Virus record (IMG/VR): IMGVR_UViG_3300047469_000375
Coordinates: 1 to 35,523 of that record
Source: a virus
DNA length: 35,523 bases
Direction: 5' to 3' (one strand)
Shown: positions 6,005-35,523 of the stretch, one piece after another
Layout: each line of letters starts with the position of its first letter
Numbering within the stretch: the stretch's first letter is position 1
Notes under the pieces: generated by a model
What the model was told of the DNA's origin: nothing
Databases searched by the model: none
Seen by the model: only the letters and a program-made list of their open reading frames with translations
Position numbers and translations under genes: made by a program

Positions 6005-8734
6005 TTAAGCGCCCTGGAATACCCAGCAGCGAATGGTTTTCGGTTTGTCGAACGCGTCCAGCGTCCGGGCCGAATTGACGGGCTTGTTTGACTCCAGAAA
6101 CTTGGGTGACTTGCTGGTCTTGAGCAGGCGTTTCAGGTCGCTGAGCGCGGGTACCTGCTGGCGTTTGTTGGCTGCCATTTCCACGAACTCGTTGAGGTTC
6201 ACGGCAATCAGCCCGTCCTTGCGTGCATGGTTGAGCGCGCCTTTTTCGTCCATGCCATTGAGGAATTCGTACAGGTCCCAAAATTCGCGCACGGTTGGGT
6301 GGTCGGCGTTGATTGCCTGCTGCCGTTCCAGCGCCATGCGGCTGATCTCTGCGTGTGCAAGGGCCTTGCGGTGTTCGCCGAGGGGCACGACACCGGCCAG
6401 CGCATCCACCAGGCTGCGAAGTTGGGCGTGGTTTTTGGCGATACGCACGGTGCGCACGCCAGGCTGGGCCAGCAGTTCCTGTTCGTAGCCGGAGGTGTTT
6501 TCCTCCATCAGGCGCATGGTTTCGGTTTCGCGTTGCAGCGCCTTGACCAGGAAGCCGCTGATGCTGTCCATCGGCATGCGTTCCAACTGCTCGGCGTACT
6601 GCTTGGTTTCCGGTGTGTGGTGCTCGCGCGTCAGGTGGACATGGCAAATGCGCTGCAGAATGGGTTCTGAAGCGTTCACAGGGTTGTTCTGCGCGATCAG
6701 CAGCGCGGCACGGAACGGAGGTTCGTGAGTGTCGTTGCCGTTGTTTTTCACACCGGTAGAGCGAACGCTGCGGCCGTTATAGGCGGTTTTCAGTTCGTCC
6801 CAGTCGAAGTGTTTAACCGGCTGGCCTTCCTTTTGTTCGCGCTCCGACTCGATCAGCACAACGGGCAAGTTACTGACCTGCGAGAAGTTGCGCGCACGGC
6901 TTGCGGCGGTCGCTTTGGACGGGTCGAAGCCTTCGTAATCAGTGCGTCCGACCGACTTCCACAGCAGCTCTACCAGTGTGGTCTTGCCCGATCCGGCTTC
7001 ACCCACCAGCTCCAGGAACATCAGTGACTTGTGGATCTGACGGATTTGCTCGGCGTGCAAAGCACCCAGCCACCAGGCCAGCACCACCAGGCCCTGTACG
7101 CCAAAGCAGCGCCAGTAGATGTCGAACCAACCTTCGTTGTAGGCGTTGAGGTCGGTGTTGATATGCAGAACCGGCGAATGGCTCTGCGACTTGATGCTCA
7201 GCTTGCCGAGGTCAAAAAAGTCTTCCTTGTTGCGCACCTGCGCTTTGCCGCCGTGGAACGCCAGGTCGTTGAAGACATAGGCACCGTGGTCGCGGCTGTA
7301 GCCGATCCATTCGATGGTGTTCACGGTTTTGAGGCAGTCGAGTTGCGGCGCCAGAATACGTTTGAGCTGCTGGGCGCTGCCCTCGAACATCGCGCCGTTG
7401 CTGACGTTGAGCAGGCGGTTGGCGAACTCAGGTGCCGACGTGAGTTGCTTGGCCGTGAATGTGCTTTTGATGGCCGGCCCCTGTGGGCGCTCGATACGGA
7501 AGTAGTACCAAGCCTCGTCCGTGAGGTCGTTGCGCATGTAATACAGCGCCTGGAAGTTGCAGTTGGCGATGCTGGTGACTGAACCGGATTGGCGCAGTGC
7601 CTTGTAGCGCCGCTGTTCCTCGGTTAGCAGCTGGTCCTCGTGGCGTTCCGAGCTTTCCAGATCGCCCATGGCGCGGTCGTACTTATCAATATCCAGGCGA
7701 AACCAATACAGGCGCTTGCGGAACGTGAAGTTGAATTCCTTGCGCTCATCGCGCAGGTAAATGAGAAACCCTTTTTCCTCAGCAGAGTCAGCCAGCAGCA
7801 GGTCGCCGTGGTGGCGTGCTTCATCAAGGTCCTGCTCGACCTGCTCGGCGCGCTTGTCATCGCCTTCGATTGACTTCCACCGCAGGTGCAGGTCGTTCCA
7901 ATCAACTTTCCTGCCATTGGGCTGTGGGATCACCGCCGCCTTGCAAGTGAAGCCCAAGTCGCGAGCTTCCTTCGCCCAGCGGCGCATGTTGGCCTTGGCA
8001 ACGGGCTCGTTGTCGAGTGCCCACACCAGCACCGGCAAACGCTTGTCGGCGTCGTGGCGAAGCTTGACCAGGGCCTTGAGCGAATCAATTGGGCAGGGGG
8101 CGCTGGACATCATCGACACGGCCGATACGTCGTTATGCACCAACGCGATAGAGTCGAAGATTCCTTCGACTATAAACAGCTCGTCCACCTCGAGCAGGTC
8201 CACGCTCGGCGGGCACCACCAGACGCCTTTGTAACCGGGCTGACCTTCACCCGTCGGCCGGAAGCGCGCTTTCATCTTGCCGAACCGGTCTGGCCGATCT
8301 ATCAGGCGCTCCCAGTAGCCACCTTTCTCAAGGGGGAAACGTACCGTGGCGCTGCCAATGTTCAGCCGACCATCCCAGTAGTTGTCCTGGCTGAACCAAC
8401 CAGCAATCAGCTCAAACTTGAAGCCCCGCGCAAACTCAAGGTAGGCGCGTGCCGTGGCAAGCGGGTTATCAGGCGTCGAAGGGGCGGTCTTGCTCCAGTC
8501 GTTGAACAAGTCATCGTAAACGTCCTTGACGTGGACACGGTGGTCGCACTTTTCCGGCCGTCCGCAGATCAACGTCCAGGGCGAATCGTAGAAGGTGTAC
8601 AGGGTTTTCTGGCCGCAACTTGGCGCCGGGCATACACCCTTGCGCATGTAGTTCGTGCCGGGCATGTGCTTGAGCTGGTAGTCGCGCTCAATGCGTTGGA
8701 TGACGTCGGCGCGCAGCCTTTGTTCCATTTCCAT
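6005..8734 (-). CDS. Toprim-type primase-helicase, replication protein
   Basis: The 909-aa protein has a zinc finger (cysteines 35, 40, 57 and 63), a Toprim domain with EGIFDS (190-195) and WALDNEP (D241), and a C-terminal superfamily-3-like helicase with Walker A GEAGSGKTT (578-586), VVLIES and LIAQNNP. It should synthesise primers and unwind DNA at the phage origin, like P4 alpha or T7 gp4 in logic. P2 itself uses a rolling-circle gpA nickase here, so this phage has a different replication module. ATG 8734 is used; its Shine-Dalgarno is weak, and ATG 8728 is an alternative. It lies 6 bp from the preceding gene. Confidence 0.9.
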   Translation of the reverse strand: MEMEQRLRADVIQRIERDYQLKHMPGTNYMRKGVCPAPSCGQKTLYTFYDSPWTLICGRPEKCDHRVHVKDVYDDLFNDWSKTAPSTPDNPLATARAYLEFARGFKFELIAGWFSQDNYWDGRLNIGSATVRFPLEKGGYWERLIDRPDRFGKMKARFRPTGEGQPGYKGVWWCPPSVDLLEVDELFIVEGIFDSIALVHNDVSAVSMMSSAPCPIDSLKALVKLRHDADKRLPVLVWALDNEPVAKANMRRWAKEARDLGFTCKAAVIPQPNGRKVDWNDLHLRWKSIEGDDKRAEQVEQDLDEARHHGDLLLADSAEEKGFLIYLRDERKEFNFTFRKRLYWFRLDIDKYDRAMGDLESSERHEDQLLTEEQRRYKALRQSGSVTSIANCNFQALYYMRNDLTDEAWYYFRIERPQGPAIKSTFTAKQLTSAPEFANRLLNVSNGAMFEGSAQQLKRILAPQLDCLKTVNTIEWIGYSRDHGAYVFNDLAFHGGKAQVRNKEDFFDLGKLSIKSQSHSPVLHINTDLNAYNEGWFDIYWRCFGVQGLVVLAWWLGALHAEQIRQIHKSLMFLELVGEAGSGKTTLVELLWKSVGRTDYEGFDPSKATAASRARNFSQVSNLPVVLIESEREQKEGQPVKHFDWDELKTAYNGRSVRSTGVKNNGNDTHEPPFRAALLIAQNNPVNASEPILQRICHVHLTREHHTPETKQYAEQLERMPMDSISGFLVKALQRETETMRLMEENTSGYEQELLAQPGVRTVRIAKNHAQLRSLVDALAGVVPLGEHRKALAHAEISRMALERQQAINADHPTVREFWDLYEFLNGMDEKGALNHARKDGLIAVNLNEFVEMAANKRQQVPALSDLKRLLKTSKSPKFLESNKPVNSARTLDAFDKPKTIRCWVFQGA

Positions 8735-30723: not shown

Positions 30724-32481
30724 ATGAATGCCACCGTCGAAATACCTACCGACCACCGCCGCCATGCCAAGCACTTGTATTGGCAGGGCTATCGCGTGTC
30801 CGAGATTGCCGAGCTGATCGGCGAGAAGGAAAAGACCCTGCACAGCTGGAAGGCCCGCGACGAGTGGGATCGGGCCACCCCGCTGGAACGTATCCAGGCG
30901 GCAACCGAAGCCCGCCTGGTGCAACTGATCCTCAAGGATCCCAAGTCCGGATCGGACTATAAGGAAATCGACCTGCTGCACCGTCAGCTGGAACGCCAGG
31001 CGCGTATTCAGCGCTTCAACGACGGCGGTACCGAAACCGAGCTGAATCCGAAGCTGGCCAAACGCAATGAGGGGTCGAAGACGGCGCCCAAACGCAATGT
31101 GTTCGATGAAGAGCACATCGAAAAGCTGACGGAAGCGTTCCTCGACGGTTGTTTCGGTTACCAACTGGACTGGTACAAGGCGGGCAATCAGCGCACCCGT
31201 ACCATCCTCAAATCCCGGCAGGTCGGGGCGACGTACTATTTCGCCCGGGAAGCGCTGCTCGATGCGTTGACCACCGGGCGCAACCAGATCTTCCTGTCTG
31301 CCTCGAAAAATCAGGCGCACATCTTCAAGGCCTACATTCAGGCGTTTGCCCGCGAGGTGGTCGGTGTCGAACTCACCGGCGATCCGATCATTCTGGGCAA
31401 CGGCGCCGAGCTGCATTTTCTCGGTACCAACGCCCGAACCGCCCAGGGCTACCACGGCAACTTTTACTTCGACGAATTCTTCTGGACGTTCAAGTTCAAG
31501 GAATTGAACAAGGTCGCCAGTGGCATGGCGATGCAGAAGCAATACCGGCGCACCTACTTTTCCACGCCCTCGAGCATGGCGCACGAAGCCTATACGTTCT
31601 GGACCGGTGAGCGCTTCAACAAGGGCAAACCGGTCGCGCAGCGGATCAAGATCGATGTGTCGCACAACGCGCTGCAACAGGGTCGATTGTGTGAGGACAA
31701 GGTGTGGCGGCAGATCGTCACGATTCTGGACGCAGAAGACCGTGGCTGCGACCTGTTCGACCTGGACGAACTGCGCCAGGAATACGATGCCGAGGCCTTC
31801 CAGAACCTGCTGATGTGCCAGTTCGTCGACGACGGGGCGAGCATTTTTCCGCTGGCCATGTTGCAGCCGTGCATGGTCGACAGTTGGGATCTCTGGGCCC
31901 TGGACTACAAACCCTTTGCCGCAAAGCCGTTTGGCGATCGACAGGTCTGGTTGGGCTACGACCCTGCGGAAAATGGTGACAGTGCCGGTCTGGTGGTGGT
32001 GGCCCCGCCGCTGGTGCCCGGGGGCAAGTTCCGGGTCCTTGAGCGCTTTCAGTTTCGCGGCCTGGACTTTGCCGCGCAGGCTGAGGCCATTCGCCAGATC
32101 ACCAAACGCTATTGGGTGACCTACATCGGCATCGACATCACCGGCATGGGCTCGGGCGTGGCCCAGCTGGTGAAGCAGTTCTTCCCGAACATCACCACCT
32201 TCAGCTATTCGCCGCAAATCAAAACCGACCTGGTGCTCAAAGCCTACGACGTCATCAAAAACGGCCGATTGGAGTTCGACGCCGGCTGGATCGACATGGC
32301 TCAGTCGCTGATGGCGATTCGCAAAACCGTTACCGCCTCCGGGCGCCAGTTCACCTACACCGCCGGTCGCACCGACGAGACTGGCCACGCTGACCTGGCT
32401 TGGGCGCTGTTTCACGCCTTGCAACACGAACCCCTCGAAGGGCAAACAACCGCAAATACCGGATTTATGGAGTCGTATTGA
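30724..32481 (+). CDS. P: terminase large subunit gpP
   Basis: The 585-aa protein has an N-terminal helix-turn-helix (LYWQGYRVSEIAELIGEKEK), an ATPase domain with Walker A-like KSRQVGAT (163-170) and Walker B NFYFDEFFW (D250, E251), and a C-terminal RNase H-like nuclease with acidic residues D413 (GYDPA), D471 (IGIDITG) and D557 (GHADLAW). It cuts at cos and drives DNA into the procapsid with gpM. Its stop shares a base with the next ATG (TGATG). The region from codon 380 on is duplicated in the following gene. Confidence 0.96.
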   Translation: MNATVEIPTDHRRHAKHLYWQGYRVSEIAELIGEKEKTLHSWKARDEWDRATPLERIQAATEARLVQLILKDPKSGSDYKEIDLLHRQLERQARIQRFNDGGTETELNPKLAKRNEGSKTAPKRNVFDEEHIEKLTEAFLDGCFGYQLDWYKAGNQRTRTILKSRQVGATYYFAREALLDALTTGRNQIFLSASKNQAHIFKAYIQAFAREVVGVELTGDPIILGNGAELHFLGTNARTAQGYHGNFYFDEFFWTFKFKELNKVASGMAMQKQYRRTYFSTPSSMAHEAYTFWTGERFNKGKPVAQRIKIDVSHNALQQGRLCEDKVWRQIVTILDAEDRGCDLFDLDELRQEYDAEAFQNLLMCQFVDDGASIFPLAMLQPCMVDSWDLWALDYKPFAAKPFGDRQVWLGYDPAENGDSAGLVVVAPPLVPGGKFRVLERFQFRGLDFAAQAEAIRQITKRYWVTYIGIDITGMGSGVAQLVKQFFPNITTFSYSPQIKTDLVLKAYDVIKNGRLEFDAGWIDMAQSLMAIRKTVTASGRQFTYTAGRTDETGHADLAWALFHALQHEPLEGQTTANTGFMESY

Positions 32482-33376
32482 TGAGCATAAACAAACGCGA
32501 AGACAACTTGGCCATCCCCGAGTCTCTAACCGAGAGCGAACTATTGCCCGCTCAACGGGGCCCTGTTGAGGCGTTAACTGTCACTGATCCTGAGCCGATG
32601 CTCGATAACCGAACGATCTCCGACTACGTGCAGACCTGCATGGTCGACAGCTGGAACCTGTGGGCTCAAGACTACCGCCCGTTTGCCGCGCGCCCGTTCG
32701 GTGATCAGCAGGTCTCGGTTGGCTACCATTCCGAAAGTCTGGTGGTGATTGCCCCGCCAAAGGTAACCTGCCGTAAGTTCAGGGTCCTCGAGCGGCACGT
32801 GTTCCGTGGCATGAGTTTCGCCGCCCAGGCAGAGGCCCTTCGCCAGATCACCCTGCGTTACCGGGTTACCTATATCAGCATCGACATTACGGGCATAGGC
32901 GCCAGCGTGGCCCACCTGGTGAAGCAATTTTTCCCTGATGTCACCACTTTCCGCTATTTGCCAGAAGTCAGAACCAAATTGGTGTTGAAGGCCTGCGACG
33001 TCATTAAAAACAGGCGTCTTGAGTTCGACACGGACTGGATCGAGATGGCGCAATCCCTGGTGACCGTCTTCGAGGCTGTTACGGCCTCCGGGCGCCAGTC
33101 CACTCAGACCGCGGGTCTCACCGACGCAACCGGCCATGCCGATTTTGCCTGGGCACTGTTTCACGCCTTGCAGCACGACCCCCTCGAAGGGCAGGCCTCG
33201 ACGAACACCAGGTCTGGGAGTCCTACTGATGAGCAAGCGTAAGCAAGGCACCCAGCTGGCCACTACCCCAGCCCCCATTGAGGGCGAGCTGCTGCCGCCG
33301 GCGTCGGGACCTGTTGAGGCGTTCACCTTCGGTGACCCCACGCCCGTGCTCGATGGCCGGGAGATCCTCGACTACC
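31862..33376 (+). repeat. tandem duplication of the P 3'-end / Q 5'-end segment
   Basis: Unit 1 (31862-32628) and unit 2 (32629-33376) each hold the 3' third of P followed by the first 150 bases of Q. Each unit starts at TGCAG (31862, 32629) and the same TGCAG ends unit 2 in Q at 33377, so the join sits on a 5-base microhomology. The copies differ by many substitutions (about two thirds amino-acid identity by eye in the P part) and small gaps. Confidence 0.88.
32481..33242 (+). CDS. chimeric Q'-P' protein: portal N-terminus joined to a degenerate terminase nuclease copy
   Basis: The 253-aa protein has residues 1-51 like the start of portal Q (ESELLPAQRGPVEALTVTDP versus EGELLPPASGPVEAFTFGDP), then residues 53-239 like P from residue 383 on. 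In the nuclease copy the first catalytic aspartate is lost (GYDPAENGDSAG became GYHSES), while the later ones (D135, D221) remain, so it should not cut DNA. A one-base deletion near the end shifts the frame past the old P stop and into the first codons of Q. The frame is open throughout. It may be a non-functional relic, or an inhibitor or adaptor of packaging. Confidence 0.88.
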   Translation: MSINKREDNLAIPESLTESELLPAQRGPVEALTVTDPEPMLDNRTISDYVQTCMVDSWNLWAQDYRPFAARPFGDQQVSVGYHSESLVVIAPPKVTCRKFRVLERHVFRGMSFAAQAEALRQITLRYRVTYISIDITGIGASVAHLVKQFFPDVTTFRYLPEVRTKLVLKACDVIKNRRLEFDTDWIEMAQSLVTVFEAVTASGRQSTQTAGLTDATGHADFAWALFHALQHDPLEGQASTNTRSGSPTDEQA

Positions 33377-34281
33377 TGCAGTGCTGGGCCAATGGGCGCT
33401 GGTTTGAAACACCGATGTCCATGGAGGGCCTGGCCAAAACCACACGGGCCAGCGTGTACCTGCAGTCGGGACTGAACTTCAAGCGCAACATGCTCGCGCG
33501 CACCTTCATCCCCCACCGGCTGTTGAGCCGTCAGGCCTTTGAGCAGTTCGCCCTGGACTGGCTGTGGAGCGGCAACTGCTACCTGGAAAAGCGCACCAAC
33601 ATGCTGCGCAGCACCATGGGCCTGCTGCCACCGCTGGCCAAGTACATGCGCCGAGGCGTGGACCTTGAGACCTATTACCAGGTACGCGGCTGGAAGGACG
33701 AACACGCCTTTGCGCCTGGCTCGATCTGCCACCTGCGCGAAGCCGATATCAACCAGGAGATCTACGGCCTGCCGGAATGGCTGGCCGCGCTGCAGAGCGC
33801 GCTGCTCAACGAGAGCGCCACGCTGTTTCGGCGCAAGTACTACAACAACGGCAGTCACGCCGGTTTCATCCTGTACATGACCGACGCGGCGCAGAAAGAG
33901 GAGGACATCGAGGCGCTGCGCACCCAGCTGAAGAACTCCAAAGGGCCGGGCAACTTTCGCAACCTGTTCGTTTACGCGCCCGCCGGTAAGAAAGACGGCA
34001 TCCAGCTTATTCCGGTCAGCGAGGTGGCGGCCAAGGATGAATTCAGCTCGATCAAGAACATCAGCCGCGACGACATGCTCGCGGCGCTGCGCATTCCTCC
34101 GCAGCTGATGGGCATCGTGCCGCAGAACGCCGGCGGCTTTGGTTCGCTAAGAGAGGCGGCCGAGGTCTGGGCGGTCAACGAGCTGGAACCGCTGCAGGCA
34201 CGCTTGGCCCAGGTGAATGACTGGCTGGGCGAGGAGGTGGTGCGCTTCAAGCCCTTTGAGCTTCCAACAGGAACCAAGTAA
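33229..34281 (+). CDS. Q: portal protein gpQ
   Basis: The 350-aa protein starts MSKRKQGTQLATTPAPIEGE and contains SVYLQSGLNFKRNMLARTFI, then NESATLFRRKYYNNGSHAGF and LRIPPQLMGIVPQNAGGFGS, standard for P2 Q (344 aa). Twelve copies form the vertex through which DNA passes. ATG 33229 is chosen over the frame from 33136, since it aligns with the family start. It overlaps the end of the chimeric gene by 14 bp instead of following P directly. Confidence 0.95.
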   Translation: MSKRKQGTQLATTPAPIEGELLPPASGPVEAFTFGDPTPVLDGREILDYLQCWANGRWFETPMSMEGLAKTTRASVYLQSGLNFKRNMLARTFIPHRLLSRQAFEQFALDWLWSGNCYLEKRTNMLRSTMGLLPPLAKYMRRGVDLETYYQVRGWKDEHAFAPGSICHLREADINQEIYGLPEWLAALQSALLNESATLFRRKYYNNGSHAGFILYMTDAAQKEEDIEALRTQLKNSKGPGNFRNLFVYAPAGKKDGIQLIPVSEVAAKDEFSSIKNISRDDMLAALRIPPQLMGIVPQNAGGFGSLREAAEVWAVNELEPLQARLAQVNDWLGEEVVRFKPFELPTGTK

Positions 34282-34340: not shown

Positions 34341-35135
34341 TTGAGCACACCCATTATCCCGTGGATGGGCGGCAAGCGCCGTCTGGCAGACCGTCTGATT
34401 CCACTGTTTCCACCCCATGAATGTTATGTCGAAGTCTTTGCCGGCGGCGCCGCGCTCTACTTCATGCGGCCCCAGGCGGCGCCGGTAGAAGTCCTCAACG
34501 ACATCAACGGCGACCTGGTGACGTTGTACCGCGTGGTGCAGAACCACCTGGAGGAGTTTGTGCGCCAGTTCAAGTGGGCACTCAGCTCCCGCCAGGTGTT
34601 TGAGTGGCAGAAGATGACCCGGCCGGAAACCCTCACCGATATCCAGCGCGCTGCGCGCTTTTTCTACCTGCAGCACCATGCGTTCGCCGGCAAGGTCAGT
34701 GGGCAGACTTTTGGTACTGCCACCACGGCCCCGGCGATCAACCTGCTGCGGATCGAGGAAAACCTGTCTGCAGCCTGGCAGCGGCTGTCGGGCACCTATG
34801 TCGAGAACCTGGGCTGGCTTGAATGCGCCGAACGCTACGACCGGCCGCACACCTTCCATTACATGGACCCGCCTTACTGGCAGACCGCAGGCTATGGGGT
34901 GGACTTTCCGTTTGAGAACTACGAGCGGATGGCCGACTTCATGCGCCGCTGCAAGGGCAAGGTGATGGTCAGCATCAACGACCACCCGGACATCCGGCGC
35001 GTGTTTGAGGGGTTTCATTTCGAGACGTTGGACATCCGCTACAGCAGCACCAACCAACGCCAAGGCAAAGCTGAGGTCAGCGGCGAACTGGTGATCATGA
35101 ACTGGGAGCCGGCAGCGCTGGGCCAGTTGTTTTGA
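34341..35135 (+). CDS. phage DNA adenine methylase (Dam-like)
   Basis: The 264-aa protein has the D12-class adenine methylase signatures: N-terminal IPWMGGKRRLADRLI, SAM-binding EVFAGGAALY (31-40), LNDINGDL and catalytic DPPYW (176-180). It methylates N6 of adenine in an unknown short site, likely against host restriction or for replication control. The start is TTG 34341 with AAGGG upstream, which gives MSTPIIPWMGG as in the family; a first ATG at 34365 would cut into the SAM motif. With the cytosine methyltransferase this phage has two modifying activities. Confidence 0.92.
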   Translation: MSTPIIPWMGGKRRLADRLIPLFPPHECYVEVFAGGAALYFMRPQAAPVEVLNDINGDLVTLYRVVQNHLEEFVRQFKWALSSRQVFEWQKMTRPETLTDIQRAARFFYLQHHAFAGKVSGQTFGTATTAPAINLLRIEENLSAAWQRLSGTYVENLGWLECAERYDRPHTFHYMDPPYWQTAGYGVDFPFENYERMADFMRRCKGKVMVSINDHPDIRRVFEGFHFETLDIRYSSTNQRQGKAEVSGELVIMNWEPAALGQLF

Positions 35136-35223: not shown

Positions 35224-35523
35224 TCAATGCGCAGCAATAGGCTGGATGGCCAGCCTCAAACCCATGGCGCGCAAGATCGCGCTTAGGCTGCTGACGGCGG
35301 GATTTCCCTCGGCTGACAGCGTTCGGTAAAGCTGGTTTGGGTTCAGGTCAGCTGATTTAGCCACACCTCGGACGCCACCAAAGGCGTCTGTCATTTGGCG
35401 TAAAGCAATCAGCAGTTCGCCCTGCTCGCCGTCCTCGAGGATGCTGTTCAGCAGCTCCACGGCATAGGTCGGATCTTTGCGGAACACATCGGCCATTGCC
35501 GCGTCATGTGATCTGTCTTTCAT
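35224..35523 (-). CDS. HTH antitoxin-like protein (COG3636 / HigA-type), at window edge
   Basis: The 99-aa protein has ALRQMTDAFGGVRGVAKSAD, then LNPNQLYRTLSAEGNPAVSS and LSAILRAMGLRLAIQPI, the pattern of COG3636 addiction-module antidotes and related HTH proteins. These usually pair with a RelE/HigB-family toxin encoded immediately upstream, which would lie beyond the right edge. The start codon uses the last three bases of the window, so an earlier start cannot be excluded. It is convergent with the methylase across the terminator. Confidence 0.75.
   Translation of the reverse strand: MKDRSHDAAMADVFRKDPTYAVELLNSILEDGEQGELLIALRQMTDAFGGVRGVAKSADLNPNQLYRTLSAEGNPAVSSLSAILRAMGLRLAIQPIAAH

Follow-up and report, generated by a model that had tools for sequence, protein, structure and literature searches.

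A chimeric portal-terminase gene at the P-Q junction of a P2-like Pseudomonas phage, and a young, independent junction duplication in Pseudomonas citronellolis

The slot between the terminase large-subunit gene (P) and the portal gene (Q) often holds a partial terminase paralogue, as in phage 186 (gene W), PSP3 (gp2), the Yersinia phages vB_YenM_201.16 and 56.17, Aeromonas phage phiO18P (a truncated terminase) and Wadgaonvirus prophages of E. coli, and it does so in 17 of 5,426 complete E. coli genomes. These W-like genes are fitted into the slot by start/stop overlaps in Escherichia, Salmonella, Yersinia and Aeromonas phages, and their products represent the ATPase half of the terminase, matching PHROG 3746 and Terminase_6N. 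Walker motifs have changed in the proteins from E. coli and Yersinia (e.g. KSRQIGAT to KMHQAGAD, LDEY to VSEY) and in part in phiO18P; 186 and PSP3 retain the Walker A sequence. Because their dN/dS lies between 0.14 and 0.28 and they are present across genera, the W-like genes look maintained, and if the single-letter genes of 186 were, as we presume, defined by amber mutants, W would be needed by that phage. A frameshifted W-like gene is carried by Escherichia phage 500465-1 (locus L004, 3744-4462), and intact versions occur in E. coli genomes. Literature searches turned up no account of terminase genes, duplicated or truncated, in the P-Q slot. W-like paralogues lie between P and Q in the following loci, with coordinates given for each locus:

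L263 to L267, 2501-3226 or 2501-3208: W-like paralogues
L268, 2399-3172: W-like paralogue
L269 and L270, 2435-3199: W-like paralogues
L271 and L272, 2935-3681: W-like paralogues

The window considered here, meaning the whole stretch of DNA that was analysed, is the 35,523-base record IMGVR_UViG_3300047469_000375; it includes a P2-like head module and comes from a P2-like Pseudomonas phage. Its P and Q genes are both intact, with 94-95% (P) and 92-93% (Q) amino acid identity to their closest relatives, and they are separated by a chimeric gene composed of a portal start (Q') and a terminase nuclease-domain copy (P'). The features of the locus, all on the plus strand, are:

30724-32481, plus strand: P, intact terminase large subunit of 585 aa (Pfam Terminase_5, Terminase_6N, Terminase_6C)
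31862-32628, plus strand: unit 1, the P nuclease-domain part followed by the Q' start (self-alignment, repeats)
32479-32483, plus strand: TGATG stop/start overlap of P and the chimera, with GGAG upstream (sequence)
32481-33242, plus strand: Q'-P' chimeric gene, an open frame of 253 aa (ATG at 32481, TAA at 33240-33242)
32481-32628, plus strand: Q' segment, about 49 codons homologous to the Q N-terminus (ungapped protein alignment)
32629-33228, plus strand: P' segment, the nuclease-domain copy (alignment, branch dN/dS)
32629-33377, plus strand: unit 2, the P' nuclease-domain copy followed by the real Q start (self-alignment, repeats)
32721-32741, plus strand: net 6-codon deletion in P' that takes out the first, conserved Asp of the RNaseH-like nuclease (aligned with P and relatives)
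33211-33217, plus strand: 1-nt deletion relative to the P end, by which the ancestral P stop is lost from the frame (alignment, relatives' junctions)
33229-33242, plus strand: 14-nt overlap of the chimera end and the Q start (sequence)
33229-34281, plus strand: Q, intact portal protein of 350 aa (Pfam Phage_portal, PHROG 68)
31862-31959 and 32629-32726: direct repeat pair, 76%
31988-32287 and 32737-33036: direct repeat pair, 75%
32558-32638 and 33306-33386: direct repeat pair, 73%

The sequence-only reading of this DNA had described the middle gene as an open frame of 253 codons with a Q-like start and a remainder resembling the P nuclease domain, and alignments, Pfam and PHROG all confirm this composition. 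Residues 1-58 of the chimera align without gaps to the N-terminus of Q, and residues 50-243 align to the P nuclease domain with approximately 70% protein identity; the Pfam profile Terminase_6C (PF17289) matches the chimera above its curated cut-off (E=1.6e-27), and PHROG portal family 8392 matches residues 7-58 (E=6e-4). The portal match is limited to the first 50-58 residues or so, and the portal core domain is absent. Self-alignment gives about 75% nucleotide identity between the two units, and the GGGAG ribosome-binding site preceding Q is retained within P', at about 33216-33220. Like the members of the W family, the chimera is a partial paralogue of the terminase large subunit, located in the P-Q slot and overlapping both neighbours. 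The W-like proteins, however, correspond to the ATPase half (Terminase_6N), have neither nuclease domain nor portal sequence and are widespread, whereas the chimera joins a portal start to the nuclease half and is known from one phage. No homology to the ATPase half (PHROG 3746, Terminase_6N) was detected in the chimera, whose matches are confined to nuclease-half and portal families; by homology it falls outside the W family.

The P' part of the chimera matches the Terminase_6C profile and retains the later acidic positions in IDITG and HAD, but the first-strand acidic residue (GYDPA), which is kept in P and in every relative aligned, is gone: the segment GYDPAENGDSAGLVV of P is replaced by GYHSESLVV, and no ATPase domain is attached. 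The first Asp is catalytic in RNaseH-like terminase nucleases; the residue lost from P' is thus probably the catalytic Asp, and as judged from sequence the chimera has probably lost its nuclease activity. The single-nucleotide deletion near the end of P' leaves the last nine codons or so shifted or new, the frame continuing 14 nt into Q. Both the deletion of the Asp segment and the frameshifted end are consistent with decay. Structure models, built from 11-sequence alignments, were poor for the chimera (pLDDT 40) and for the P nuclease used as a control (pLDDT 44).

The chimera was absent from all 160 relative loci compared from viral and bacterial collections. P overlaps Q directly in 156 of these (TGATG in 135, ATGA in 21), and the TGATG shared by P and the chimera is the very overlap that joins P to Q in those 135; slot content other than a plain P-Q junction occurred at two loci, L124 (described below) and that of phage 500465-1. 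Exact-peptide scans of genome and viral collections revealed no relative of the chimera, an alignment-based scan yielded none among the matches listed, and a second copy was not found in 399 Pseudomonas genomes, phages and plasmids (Pseudomonas being the genus of L087, a relative discussed below). The 24-mer spanning the junction was not found elsewhere in the viral collection. Matches with odd layouts in Erwinia ENT90 and Klebsiella, as well as one in a P. luteola plasmid, proved to be ordinary P-Q junctions. The chimera is known, then, from one phage, a rarity only as good as the sampling.

A young counterpart is present in a prophage of Pseudomonas citronellolis GW210018_S65 (L124), where a tandem direct duplication across P-Q (6761-7075) has an offset of 314 bp and copies that are 98% identical over 301 bp; it was detected again in a separate search, as two adjacent matches. 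Its product is an open, in-frame Q'-P' chimera of approximately 104 codons, consisting of eight portal codons followed by the end of P. As in the window, the end of P and the start of Q have been duplicated into an in-frame Q'-P' chimera, but at other breakpoints, over a shorter distance and with just 96 or so codons of P'. The identity between copies argues that this duplication is young, and the differing breakpoints that it is a separate event; as a young and independent version, it indicates that the proposed duplication mechanism does occur. Junction duplication of this kind is real and independently repeated. The originally proposed explanation, one unequal exchange across P-Q, fits both the anatomy of the window and the L124 case. 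The microhomology invoked for that exchange, TGCAG, does occur at all three boundaries (31862, 32629 and about 33377), but it is no proof of a breakpoint, since the match extends over just 5 nt and most clade members encode E rather than Q at this position of Q (DYLECW). In both duplications the repeat offsets (749/767 in the window, 314 in L124) equal 2 mod 3, as an in-frame Q'-P' requires; from a sample of two this is only suggestive.

The source of P' can be placed within a single clade. In a tree of nuclease domains it joins L018, L087 and the window P in one group (99/96 support), though the length of its branch weakens this placement, and at the nucleotide level it is closer to L087 (78% identity) than to the resident P (74%). 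Synonymous divergence between P and P' (dS 0.99) is greater than that between the resident P and L087 (0.54), and the corresponding values for Q' and Q are dN 0.435 and dS 1.15. A recent copy of the resident P is rejected on the basis of the P-P' dS and the closer affinity of P' to L087, unless P was later replaced; an origin from a distant phage is likewise rejected, as P' nests within the home clade. Among the two options that had been offered to explain the divergence of the copies, maintenance of the frame or arrival of the second unit from a related phage, origin from a related phage fits better, given these distances and the constrained phase before drift that is described below. No donor was found whose intact P is close to P', the best candidate having 78% nucleotide identity. 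The AU test does not reject a sister relationship of window P and P' (p=0.285), and the two share three clustered derived bases near the 3' end (LQH, codons 183-188), a hint of some shared history in one genome. The resident P itself (30724-32478) is mostly 85-98% identical to L018, dropping to about 85% after roughly 31964, a sign of mosaic exchange within the clade; the notion that this breakpoint coincides with the start of the unit was dropped, as the L018-like stretch ends at about 31889-32033 rather than at 31862.

Substitution patterns in P' depart from those of a working terminase and from those of a simple pseudogene. Branch dN/dS is 0.265 for P' (bootstrap 0.17-0.40), compared with 0.083 for the resident P and 0.01-0.07 for relatives, and is thus at least three times that of P branches while significantly below 1. 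Relative to an ancestral sequence reconstructed under a simple model, with 34 sites uncertain, 23 of the 53 amino acid changes fall at sites that are at least 99% conserved, where neutrality predicts 23.2 +/- 3.8 for a comparable total of changes; neither core nor Gly/Pro sites are spared to a significant degree. The comparison of synonymous and nonsynonymous rates, advocated at the outset as a check, accordingly yields constraint by the ratio, but a neutral rate of change at family-invariant sites, which argues against maintenance. On the other hand, codons with silent changes only number 40, versus 16 +/- 4 under pure neutrality, an excess that requires a constrained phase. Simulations in two phases, of approximately 60 constrained and then 65-80 neutral changes, roughly reproduced all counts. 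Rejected were a single-phase neutral pseudogene, for which silent changes are too many, and a single-phase functional P, for which too many nonsynonymous changes strike invariant sites. The frame was still open in 24-30% of two-phase simulations, and in about 13% when the spectrum of the P' branch itself was used. With a probability of 0.13-0.30, an open frame after drift is unsurprising, and its persistence, originally viewed as a possible sign of maintenance, does not serve as one. The natural reading of this record is that P' was constrained within the working terminase of another clade member and was freed when unequal joining placed it behind Q', although comparable substitution counts could also result from a new function under other constraints.

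The account we favor, with a probability of roughly 0.58, is that the chimera arose by illegitimate joining across P-Q, in which two related members of one clade were most likely the partners, and is now drifting, possibly with some coupling to Q. One unequal joining between two members of this small clade of Pseudomonas P2-like phages would have produced a full P, the first 49 or so portal codons (Q'), the nuclease-domain copy (P') and a full Q. The chimera would subsequently have drifted with little constraint at the protein level, its nuclease activity probably lost; chance would account in part for the frame having stayed open, and a second possible factor is that ribosomes terminating close to the Q start aid translation of Q. 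The two-parent origin, the loss of nuclease activity and the coupling role are the parts of this account that we infer. An assembly artefact joining two phages might be suspected from the single virus record and the unique junction 24-mer, but is very improbable: 25% of sites distinguish the two copies, the roughly 5 nt in common at the joins would not be enough to mislead an assembler, P' without its conserved Asp is not simply the intact P of another phage, and L124, an unrelated isolate genome, has a comparable arrangement.

Selective explanations must be weighed against the same data. An old tandem duplication in one lineage, in which partial selection has kept Q'-P' as an accessory packaging factor, probably nuclease-dead and comparable to W, would accommodate the P' dN/dS, which is significantly below 1 and within the W-like range, the occupation of the same slot by W-like genes (several with eroded Walker motifs), and the unrejected in-situ sisterhood of P and P'. 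We nevertheless regard it as unlikely, in that nonsynonymous changes in P' ignore the conservation pattern of P without significantly sparing the core, the C-terminus is frameshifted, no other chimera-bearing phage was found among the matches listed, and W-like genes come from the ATPase half, not the nuclease half. The apparent maintenance of W-like genes in this slot does make a function for the chimera possible, though not favored; as a maintained, nuclease-dead fusion of portal and terminase it might assist or regulate the packaging motor as one of its parts, or serve as a decoy against rivals, representing an independent nuclease-half counterpart of W, and we consider this rather unlikely. 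Alternatively, the chimera might be a translated spacer only, through which ribosomes must reach the Q start, so that stops and frameshifts are selected against while the amino acid sequence is free. The nearly universal P-Q overlap (156/160), the fact that every intact slot insert observed either overlaps Q or re-establishes the overlap, the 2 mod 3 offsets of both duplications and the GGGAG kept before Q are all in keeping with such a role; yet it does not alone account for the surplus of silent changes, both duplications would be in frame by chance 1 time in 9, the insert that precedes Q in phage 500465-1 is frameshifted, and an open frame after drift is not rare. We judge the spacer role by itself to be quite unlikely. 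The favored joining of two clade members followed by drift leaves room for coupling to Q as a contributing factor.

Viewed together, the old case in the window and the young one in P. citronellolis are independent instances of chimeric phage genes created by partial duplication where two genes overlap, in a slot that repeatedly harbors partial terminase paralogues. The W-like proteins of 186 and its relatives, several with eroded catalytic motifs, are an under-studied packaging component whose role is made testable by this slot. Directly 3' of Q, the window contains a likely DNA adenine methylase gene with a TTG start (34341-35135); the position 3' of Q in relatives is occupied by methylase, SEFIR, TIR or AAA genes. 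The record closes, on the minus strand (35224-35523), with a small helix-turn-helix, antitoxin-like frame.
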